A DNA stretch of 64,000 bases from Pseudogemmatithrix spongiicola (GTDB taxonomy: Bacteria > Gemmatimonadota > Gemmatimonadetes > Gemmatimonadales > Gemmatimonadaceae): the NCBI RefSeq assembly GCF_030623445.1, contig NZ_CP130613.1:1798001-1862000 (forward strand), in the 5' to 3' direction. Position numbers and translations under genes: made by a program. Under the pieces are notes generated by a model. It did not search any database. It saw nothing but the letters and a program-made list of their open reading frames with translations, and had not been told where the DNA came from. Positions 8,983 to 12,510 of this stretch are shown here, in pieces. Numbering within the stretch: position 1 is the first letter of the stretch; each line of letters starts with the position of its first letter.

Positions 8983-10041
8983 TCAGGTGCTCAGCACCGA
9001 CCAGTACTTCGCCTCGTCATCGAGGATGCGGCCCGTGCCGCGCACCACGCAGGTCAGCGGATCCTCATCCACGTGGATCGGCAGGCCCGTCTCCTGCGTC
9101 AGGAGCACATCGAGCCCGCGGATCAGCGCGCCGCCGCCCGTCATCACGATGCCGCGGTCCACGATGTCACTCGCCAGCTCGGGCGGCGTGATCTCCAGCG
9201 CGCGGCGCACGGCGTTCACGATCTGCTGGATCGGTTCCTGCACCGCCTCGCGGATCTCCTGCGAGTGCACGCGCACCGTCTTCGGGATGCCGGAGACGAG
9301 GTCGCGGCCCTTCACTTCCATCTCGCGCTCCTCGCCGAGCGGCGCCGCGCTGCCGATCTGGATCTTGATCTGCTCCGCCGTCGGCTCGCCGATCAACAGG
9401 TTGTAGCTCTTGCGCATGAACTGCACGATGCTCGCGTCGAGCTCGTCGCCGCCCGTGCGGATCGACGTATCGCTCACGATGCCCGAGAGCGCGATGACGG
9501 CGATCTCCGTCGTGCCGCCACCGATGTCGATCACCATGTTGCCCGTCGGCGTCTCCACCGGCAGGCCCACGCCGATCGCCGCCGCCATCGGCTCCGCGAC
9601 CATGAACACTTCCTTCGCACCCGCGCCGAGCGCGGAGTCGCGCACTGCGCGCTTCTCCACTTCGGTGATGCCGCTCGGCACGCACACGATCACGCGCGGC
9701 TTCACCTTGAACACGTGGTTCTTGATGATCAGCTCGAGGAAGAAGCGCAGCATCTTCTCGGTCACGTCGAAGTCGGCGATCACGCCGTCTTTCATCGGGC
9801 GCACCGCGATCACGCCATCCGGCGTACGCCCGAGCATGCGCTTCGCTTCGAGACCGACGCCCTTGATCTTCTTTGTTTCGCGATCGATGGCGACGACGCT
9901 CGGCTCGTTGAGCACGATGCCTTCGCCCTTCACGTAGATCAACGTGTTCGCCGTTCCAAGGTCCACCGCGATTGCGTTGGCCGGGAGGAAACCACCGTTT
10001 TGGAAGAACGGCCACTTCAGAGGCAAGGCAGGCTCTCGCAC
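8983..10041 (-). CDS. mreB: Rod shape-determining actin homologue MreB
   Basis: Bacterial actin that polymerises on the inner membrane and positions the elongasome. It has 352 residues. Phosphate-1 motif is [17 protein letters not shown]. The core carries [19 protein letters not shown] (phosphate-2), the [17 protein letters not shown] segment and the adenosine motif [14 protein letters not shown]. The listed start is GTG at 10041 ([13 protein letters not shown]). A TTG five codons downstream is an alternative, and no strong ribosome-binding site separates them. It is the first gene of the mre run. Its likely promoter lies in the 96 bp before it, but I could not identify it with confidence. 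Confidence 0.96.
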
Positions 10042-10137
10042 GTCCGGGAAATGCTCCCGGCGAAGCAGGGGGACAGGACAACTCCTTATGAGAACGGAAG
10101 TTAGTCCCCGGTCCCGCCCCCTACAAGGCGCGCGCCC

Positions 10138-11268
10138 TTAGGGAGCCCCGTTGTTCCGCTCGGGGAGCGTGAACCGGATGGGCAGCTGCACCACCTGGGC
10201 GACCCGACGTCCCTGCCGGGTCGCCGGGAAGAAGCGCGCCGTCACCAGCGCCCGCCGCACCGCATCCCCGAACAGCGGATGCGTGGCTGTCACGATATCC
10301 AGGGTCGACGACTGCACCTGGCCGTCCGCCATCACGACGAACTCCGCCAGCGCAAAGCCGGTCACCCCGGCGGAGAAGAGCGAGTCCGGGTACATCGGCT
10401 CGATCGGCAGCGACGGGTCCGGGCGGGCCGGCGTGTCCACCTGGTCTTCCGTGAAGACCTCTTCGCGCTCGACCATGGCGCTCACGGTCGACGCCGCGGA
10501 GCGTTCATTGCGTCCGCGTCGCTCCAGCCGCGGACGGATCTGGCCCTCCCGGGTCCAAATCACGATGGCGCCGCCCCGCTGGCCGCTCAGGCCCACTTGG
10601 TTGAACTCCGGGGGCATGGTCGCGTCGCCGGAGTAGACCTCCACCCCCAGGAACGTCTGCGGGTCCAGCAGTTCGATATCGATCTCACCGGCCGCCATGC
10701 GCACGCCGTCGAGGAAGACCATGGGCGGCACGCTCGAGCCGCGCAGGCGGACGTAGGTCCGGCCGCGCATCGTCTCGGTGCGCATGCCCGGGACCGTCCG
10801 GAAGAGGTCGCGCATCGTGAAGATGCTGCGGCGCTCGATCTGCTCCGCCGTCACGAAGCGCCCCTGGCCCTGATCCATGCGGCGGTAGAAGCCCAGGGCG
10901 TTGCCGCGCAGGTTCTCGCGACCCGAGACGATCACCGGCGCGAGCCGCTGCGGCAGCGCAGAGAGCTCGACCATCAGCTCCGGCGCCGCATCTGACGGCG
11001 ACCAGAGCCGGCGCTCGGGGCGGTAACCGAGCCGGCGAAACTGCACCTCCTCATCGGCGCTGCGAGCCTGCGGAAACGCAAAGCGCCCGTCCGCGCCCGT
11101 CTCCGCCCGCAGCCCGCCGCTCCCCAGGCTCACCTGCACGCCGGCAATCCCCAACCCCAACGAGTCGCGCACCACCCCGCGCAACACCTTCTGCGCGTCC
11201 GCCGCCGCCGGCAGCAGCAGCGGCAGCGCGAGCAGCACGACCACCGCCCCCGGCACCGTCTTCCGCAT
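10138..11268 (-). CDS. Exported CarboxypepD_reg / receptor-plug / TonB C-terminal fusion protein
   Basis: Starting at the ATG at 11268, which has GGAG six bases upstream (a GTG at 11289 is the longer option), the protein has 376 residues. Residues 1-25 are a signal peptide ending ADA-Q. Residues 28-100 look like a CarboxypepD_reg beta-sandwich (GVVRDSLGLGIAGVQVSL, then ADGRFAF). Residues 105-240 resemble a TonB-receptor plug: APVIVSG, then RSIFTMRDLFRTVPGMR, then RLRGSSVPPMVFLDGVRM. Residues 285-370 resemble a TonB C-terminal domain: PDSLFSAGVTGFALAEFVV, then FPATRQGRRVAQVVQLPIRF. There is no beta-barrel and no membrane anchor apart from the signal sequence. The function is unknown; a periplasmic or outer-membrane-associated adaptor is plausible. 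It lies directly upstream of mreB on the same strand. Confidence 0.8.
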   Translation of the reverse strand: MRKTVPGAVVVLLALPLLLPAAADAQKVLRGVVRDSLGLGIAGVQVSLGSGGLRAETGADGRFAFPQARSADEEVQFRRLGYRPERRLWSPSDAAPELMVELSALPQRLAPVIVSGRENLRGNALGFYRRMDQGQGRFVTAEQIERRSIFTMRDLFRTVPGMRTETMRGRTYVRLRGSSVPPMVFLDGVRMAAGEIDIELLDPQTFLGVEVYSGDATMPPEFNQVGLSGQRGGAIVIWTREGQIRPRLERRGRNERSAASTVSAMVEREEVFTEDQVDTPARPDPSLPIEPMYPDSLFSAGVTGFALAEFVVMADGQVQSSTLDIVTATHPLFGDAVRRALVTARFFPATRQGRRVAQVVQLPIRFTLPERNNGAP

Positions 11269-11394: not shown

Positions 11395-12510
11395 TTACTT
11401 GATAAACTTCGAGGCCTCGTGATACTCCATCCCGAACGCCTCCGCGACGCCCTGGTAGGTCACCTTGCCGTCGACCACGTTCAGCCCCTTGAGCAGCGCC
11501 GGATCTTCCGCCAACGCCTGCTTCCAGCCCTTGTTCGCGAGCTTGAGCGCATACGGCAGCGTCGCGTTGGTCAACGCGAGCGTCGAGGTGCGCGGCACGC
11601 CGCCCGGCATGTTCGCCACGCCGTAGTGGATGATGCCGTCCACCGTGTACACCGGGTTCTCGTGCGTCGTCGCCTTGATCGTCTCGACGCAGCCACCCTG
11701 GTCGATCGCCACGTCCACGATCACCGCGCCCGGCTGCATCTTCTTGAGATCCTCGCGACGGATCAACTTCGGGGCCTTCGCGCCCGGCAGCAGCACGCCG
11801 CCCACCACGAGGTCCGCCGTCGCGATCGCCTCGAGGATGTTCGCGCGGTTCGAGAACACCGTCTGCACGTTCGCCGGCATCACGTCGTTCAGGTAGCGCA
11901 GGCGCGGCAGCGAGGTGTCGAGGATGATCACCTTCGCGCCCATGCCCGCCGCCATCTTGGCCGCGTTCACGCCCACCACGCCGCCGCCGAGGATCACGAC
12001 CTTGGCCGGCGCCACGCCCGGCACGCCACCCAGCAGCACGCCGCGGCCGCCGTAGAGCTTCTCGAGGTACTTGGCGCCTTCCTGCACCGCCATGCGGCCC
12101 GCCACTTCCGACATCGGCGTCAGCAGCGGCAGCTCGCGCGACGCCAGCTCCACCGTCTCGTACGCGATGCAGGTCGCGCCGGACTCGAGGTGCGCCTTCG
12201 TCAGCTCCTCGTCCGCGGCGAAGTGGAAGTACGTGAAGATCGTCTGGCCCTTCCGCATCCGCGGCCACTCGACCTTGATCGGCTCCTTGACCTTGATGAT
12301 CATCTCGGCCGACGCCCACACCTCGTCCGCGGTCGGCAGGATCTTCGCGCCCACCGCCGTGTACTGCGCGTCATCGAAGCCCGAGCCCAACCCCGCGCCC
12401 TGCTCGATGTACACCGTATGCCCCGCCGCCACCAATGCCTCGGCGCCGGCCGGGACGAGGGCGATGCGGTTCTCGTTGGTCTTGATCTCTTTCGGAACGC
12501 CGATCTTCAT
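11395..12510 (-). CDS. ald: Alanine dehydrogenase
   Basis: NAD-dependent enzyme interconverting L-alanine with pyruvate and ammonia. It has 371 residues, the usual length. The N-terminus MKIGVPKEIKTNENRIALVP is diagnostic, with the substrate arginine in the following region. Further matches are KVKEPIKVEW, TYFHFAADEELT, LTPMSEVAGRMAVQEGA, the NAD-binding VVILGGGVVGVNAAKMA and VDVAIDQGGCVET. The gene stands alone, flanked on both sides by heptad repeat elements. An assignment to transhydrogenase alpha subunit is excluded by length and C-terminal motifs (PRTSTLALTNATLPY). Confidence 0.97.
   Translation of the reverse strand: MKIGVPKEIKTNENRIALVPAGAEALVAAGHTVYIEQGAGLGSGFDDAQYTAVGAKILPTADEVWASAEMIIKVKEPIKVEWPRMRKGQTIFTYFHFAADEELTKAHLESGATCIAYETVELASRELPLLTPMSEVAGRMAVQEGAKYLEKLYGGRGVLLGGVPGVAPAKVVILGGGVVGVNAAKMAAGMGAKVIILDTSLPRLRYLNDVMPANVQTVFSNRANILEAIATADLVVGGVLLPGAKAPKLIRREDLKKMQPGAVIVDVAIDQGGCVETIKATTHENPVYTVDGIIHYGVANMPGGVPRTSTLALTNATLPYALKLANKGWKQALAEDPALLKGLNVVDGKVTYQGVAEAFGMEYHEASKFIK

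Follow-up and report, generated by a model that had tools for sequence, protein, structure and literature searches.

What can a protein do that carries a receptor plug and a TonB C-terminal domain (CTD) in a single chain? The question is raised by a gene, here called gene X, in a stretch of 64,000 nucleotides from Pseudogemmatithrix spongiicola (the window). The gene and its parts lie as follows.

10138..11268, minus strand: gene X, a predicted periplasmic NTE-plug-TonB_C protein of 376 aa (open reading frame, Pfam, structural model)
11194..11268, minus strand: predicted type I signal peptide, residues 1-25, ending in AADA before Q and without a lipobox Cys (sequence)
10951..11193, minus strand: CarboxypepD_reg or SusC-type NTE, residues 26-106 (PF13620; 9hfj, Z 13.1)
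10918..10944, minus strand: TonB-box-like segment LAPVIVSGR, residues 109-117 (pLDDT <50; motif found in relatives)
10543..10899, minus strand: plug, residues 124-242, with no barrel behind it (PF07715; 4epa, 6z9a)
10426..10542, minus strand: linker between plug and CTD, residues 243-281 (low to mixed pLDDT)
10159..10425, minus strand: TonB CTD, residues 282-370, with an invariant YP, Tyr293-Pro294 (PF03544, TIGR01352, 6i97_D)

The earlier note had read a signal peptide, a CarboxypepD_reg module, a plug and a TonB CTD in one chain, and both the profile searches and the predicted structure agree. In Pfam, CarboxypepD_reg at residues 29-87 scored 32.9 bits against a cut-off of 32.3, the plug (PF07715) at 139-217 scored 38.9 bits against 23.9, and TonB_C (PF03544) at 290-368 scored 32.5 bits against 24.6. 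The NCBIfam model tonB_Cterm (TIGR01352) gave 37 bits against a cut-off of 27.1, and the A-Q at the signal-peptide junction is nearly invariant among relatives. An AlphaFold2 model built from 21 aligned sequences has a mean pLDDT of 73 and a pTM of 0.40, the domains being confident and their relative placement not. By fold comparison, residues 25-109 resemble the NTE of a SusC dextran transporter (9hfj; Z 13.1, rmsd 2.0) and residues 124-241 the plugs of FyuA (4epa; Z 9.8) and of the SusC BT1763 (6z9a; Z 9.2). Residues 278-370 resemble the TonB CTD 6i97_D (Z 11.9, rmsd 1.8 over 89 residues) and that of BtuB:TonB (2gsk_B; Z 10.2), both of them CTDs solved in receptor complexes. A predicted structure in which one of these two folds was wrong would have refuted the earlier note; both the plug and the TonB CTD fold were found. 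The absence of a barrel and of a membrane anchor is likewise borne out: a beta-barrel (PF00593) had no match after the plug, where the linker and TonB_C alone come, and neither sequence nor model has an N-terminal inner-membrane helix or a proline-rich spacer, the signal peptide leading instead into the NTE. Nor does the sequence contain a lipobox.

Protein X therefore resembles two known systems, each in part. With SusC/RagA-type transporters (Bt1763, the BT3090 dextran SusC) it shares signal peptide, NTE, TonB-box position and plug, arranged alike, but a TonB CTD stands where these have their outer-membrane barrel, and the plugs of most of its relatives carry a pair of cysteines. With TonB it shares the fold and sequence of the CTD, including a Tyr-Pro that is invariant in the alignment of X relatives. 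The best match to this CTD in its own genome, at 43% identity, is an anchored TonB of 237 aa, an ordinary TonB with a TM helix, a proline-rich stretch and a CTD. Unlike TonB, X has no inner-membrane helix or proline-rich spanning segment, and a type I signal peptide is predicted. Because it lacks the barrel of the one and the anchor of the other, a defining feature in each case, X is neither a TonB-dependent receptor nor a TonB. A CTD inside a TonB-dependent receptor does appear to have precedent, since positions 8-89 of the NCBIfam model for the myxochelin receptor MxcH (NF038079) match the X CTD (E 5.5e-6), with a whole-protein score of 24.7 bits, far below the cut-off of 925. However, MxcH is a barrel receptor matched close to its N terminus, whereas the CTD of X is C-terminal and no barrel is present.

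The genome encodes three anchored TonBs (L002, L060, L061) and three unanchored TonB_C proteins, X included. As TonB_C also occurs in unanchored proteins other than X, the domain may have further binding functions in the phylum. At L067:4288-4929 (C1 about 2344287-2344928) is a protein with a signal peptide, a weak CarboxypepD_reg match and TonB_C, without an anchor. At L065:3744-5408 (C1 about 1009743-1011407) a CinA open reading frame runs in frame into a lipoprotein-like signal (ending in VAPAAC) and TonB_C, which is either a fusion or two genes with no intervening stop.

The earlier note had the architecture right but overlooked the large family of barrel-less plugs in this phylum. Many barrel-less CarboxypepD_reg-plug proteins in the class are about 240-280 aa long and have nothing beyond the plug. 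All of the features of this family, an NTE, an LxxVxV linker and a plug without a barrel, are present in X, which belongs to this Gemmatimonadota family and carries a TonB CTD in addition. The unusual step is therefore the added CTD, which the other members lack, and not the loss of a barrel. Family members share with most X copies the cysteine pair in the plug (positions 180 and 232). Both cysteines occur in 91 rows (66 X and 25 plug-only), neither in 14 (all X, the window copy and 13 others) and a single one in none, a pattern in the alignment that would fit a disulfide kept or lost as a unit. The pair was treated as a variable trait and was not used to exclude family membership. In the tree, plug-only rows sit among X rows at weakly supported forks, so that it fits either one fusion of the CTD or several.

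Other members of this group were seen along the way. A plug-only protein of 278 aa in the same genome (C1:346514), with the cysteine pair, is divergent from a SusC/SusD-type pair, the locus lying at L066:3-4850 (C1 about 342002-346849). One genome has four tandem barrel-less CarboxypepD-plug paralogues (L161:3043-8693). Proteins of 464-501 aa adjoin or lie near X copies (L038:7595-10566, L046:3699-5093), and the two that were tested have several CarboxypepD_reg repeats followed by a plug, with no TonB_C. Searches of a literature library returned nothing relevant on plug-TonB_C fusions or barrel-less plugs.

Relatives were searched in 395 genomes of the phylum Gemmatimonadota. All copies found there with the three-domain architecture, whose taxonomic distribution the earlier note had raised, belong to one GTDB family; elsewhere in the class, matches cover just the N-terminal half of X. 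Neighbourhoods were read for 80 relatives, and 75 of these keep all three domains, the TonB CTD included. Ten pairs of close relatives gave dN/dS values of 0.04-0.33 across the whole protein and below 0.5 in each domain, so purifying selection acts on every domain. Because of these 75 relatives and this selection X is not a broken receptor, and a frameshifted receptor or a chance open reading frame is ruled out by the 75 relatives. A search of named records with the single X protein as query found no relatives, and one with a 12-row alignment as query found 25 loci, nearly all titled Gemmatimonadota (Gemmatimonas, Gemmatimonadaceae). One record titled Candidatus Kuenenia stuttgartiensis (L096, CALQGY020000042.1) carries a full-length X gene of the Gemmatimonadaceae type and is probably a mislabelled bin.

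The segment between NTE and plug offers a first indication of what X might contact. Residues 107-121 are disordered in the model (pLDDT <50), and LxxVxV is kept at this place in nearly all rows, within LAPVIVSGR in the window copy. SusC-type receptors adjoining X carry RLEEVVVTG or similar at the equivalent place. In the SusC Bt1763, DEVVVTG stands at the TonB-box position and is needed for function, and deletion or replacement of the TonB-box core causes growth defects like those of SusD loss (PMC7782687). The motif in X thus sits where SusC proteins have their TonB box; judged by sequence it is TonB-box-like, and its binding is a prediction.

The genes beside X provide a second indication. 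In the window, the neighbouring features are the following.

8983..10041, minus strand: downstream neighbour, taken to be mreB (open reading frame; used as search query)
10079..10105, minus strand: 27-bp stretch, possibly a separate mreB promoter (89% identical in G004, a relative without gene X)
11395..12510, minus strand: upstream neighbour, probably alanine dehydrogenase, ald (open reading frame; conserved in the genus)

Neighbours were counted with a purpose-made gene caller, contig ends being scored as no neighbour. By this count, a TonB-dependent receptor is the next gene on the same strand in 19 of 75 X copies, usually followed by SusD. The chance expectation for X directly upstream of a receptor gene, based on 10-38 barrels per genome, is about 0.6, although the binomial figure overstates independence because the linked rows are related to each other. 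Eleven more copies have a receptor or SusD-type gene no more than three genes away (30/75 altogether), and 45/75 have none within three genes; the window copy is without adjoining receptor genes. Gaps between X and receptor are about 130-490 bp, which is not proof of an operon. Receptor linkage is found in 23 of the 24 rows that make up group B of the tree (18 + 6 rows; supports 99 and 100). Group A (36 rows, support 99) holds the window copy, and there receptor linkage occurs only in the window's genus: X, SusC-like and SusD-like genes stand together between ald and mreB in G126 and G205, and elsewhere in the genome in G087. Linkage therefore either came about in two branches apart from each other or was retained in both. 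The partners of a second family, 414-499 aa long, are divergent SusDs (hhalign probability 98.3% over 382 columns), with no Pfam match in the one member tested. Divergent SusD-like lipoproteins lie downstream of SusC-like receptors at L074:10665-12038 and L068:9728-10972, and similar ones in L126, L136, L141 and L143. We considered whether X complements a plug-less receptor and rejected this, as the neighbouring receptors checked have a full NTE and plug.

We infer, tentatively and at somewhat less than an even chance, that X is a periplasmic, non-energised mimic of TonB that binds the TonB boxes of SusC-like receptors and modulates their coupling. X would consist of a SusC-type receptor's N-terminal half, with its NTE, TonB-box-like linker and plug, and a TonB CTD where the receptor has its barrel. 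Strand addition, TonB's own mode of binding, would join the CTD to the TonB boxes of SusC-like receptors. It could not deliver force because X has no inner-membrane anchor and no ExbB/ExbD-coupled segment. By occupying the TonB box, X would keep a receptor uncoupled, or hand it over, until displaced by TonB. The TonB-box-like segment and the plug of X may shield the CTD, through autoinhibition or pairing with a second copy; alternatively, they may draw TonB to the occupied receptor. We favour modulation because a soluble CTD can occupy TonB boxes without force and because there is a precedent for inhibition in E. coli, where Howard and colleagues in 2001 reportedly found FecA and FhuA transport to be inhibited when the periplasmic domain of TonB is expressed in vivo. 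The idea in the earlier note of an adaptor docking to a receptor or to TonB-like partners gains support from the TonB-box-like linker, the TonB-close CTD and the frequent SusC/SusD linkage, and is plausible, with the docking itself a prediction from sequence. Doubtful, on present evidence, is the fuller proposal that the Gemmatimonadaceae evolved a dedicated soluble regulator in which an NTE-plug joined to a CTD captures SusC-like TonB boxes, possibly also its own, and selects which receptors are coupled.

We rank modulation of receptor coupling above other binding roles, self-association, bridging, biogenesis and cell shape. It is possible that the domains were re-used as general binding or structural modules outside TonB-dependent transport, for example in ligand sensing or envelope scaffolding. 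Many barrel-less plug proteins have no receptor neighbours, the 45 unlinked X copies show the same, and the other unanchored TonB_C proteins of the genome point in this direction too. However, both the TonB-box-like motif and the Tyr-Pro are retained and receptor linkage is found in two branches, and we think such re-use unlikely.

Two further arrangements, each of which we regard as quite unlikely, would also make use of the linker. In the first, the CTD binds the linker of its own or of another chain, giving autoinhibited monomers or head-to-tail chains, and the plug binds a substrate or an envelope ligand. The two halves of a TonB/TonB-box pair do lie in one chain with a disordered linker between NTE and plug, and this segment is conserved together with the CTD. 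Yet the model, with a linker pLDDT below 50 and a pTM of 0.40, does not dock the CTD on the linker, and plug-only relatives keep the motif without having a CTD. In the second, X is a bridge: a genuine TonB binds the linker segment and plug, while the CTD binds a receptor. The motif is rightly placed for this and the genome has three anchored TonBs to recruit, but direct contact between TonB and receptor needs no bridge, and the binding of the motif is hypothetical.

A role in SusC biogenesis, with X holding or screening the plug or NTE of a receptor in the periplasm before barrel assembly, would fit the SusCD linkage. In Bt1763, deletion of the NTE abolishes growth, and the authors suggest that biogenesis may explain this (PMC7782687). 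X itself has no chaperone or BAM feature, and no plug was missing or incomplete in those neighbouring receptors that were checked, leaving this role improbable.

The position of X directly upstream of mreB on the same strand, stated in the earlier note, is correct, with a gap of 96 bp. We take the open reading frame at 8983..10041 to be mreB, followed by mreC, mreD, pbp2 and rodA-like genes, and that at 11395..12510 to be probably ald. The functional tie that this position seemed to imply did not survive comparison. X is present in 9 of 13 genomes of the window's genus and most of these copies are upstream of mreB, but the order ald-X-mreB occurs in this genus only, and ald adjoins mreB without X in G004 (MreB 99% identical), G073 and G188. 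In G004, a candidate X remnant in the interval from ald to mreB was discounted, being just 13 residues long (E 2.9). The 27-bp stretch upstream of mreB may, from its sequence conservation, be mreB's own promoter. Because the arrangement is confined to one genus, with close relatives lacking X there, the mreB neighbour says little on function. A part for X in cell shape with MreB, suggested by its place directly before mreB both in the window and in the majority of copies from the genus, is thus very improbable, given that three genomes keep ald-mreB without X, that X lies elsewhere beside a receptor in G087 and has other neighbours in other genera, and that mreB may have its own promoter; we reject it on gene order.

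The barrel-less, cysteine-paired plugs suggest that the plug can exist as an independent domain across a whole bacterial class. For X, the modulation of receptor coupling that we favour touches an open question, namely the way in which coupling is divided among the 10-38 receptors of a genome when the cell has few TonBs. With both sides of the contact between TonB and receptor in one soluble, naturally occurring chain, and with SusC/SusD-type pairs often encoded next to it, X would lend itself well to examining this. X is a possible natural brake on, or selector of, receptor coupling, and if it is indeed a regulator, it would set which receptors couple to the cell's few TonBs.
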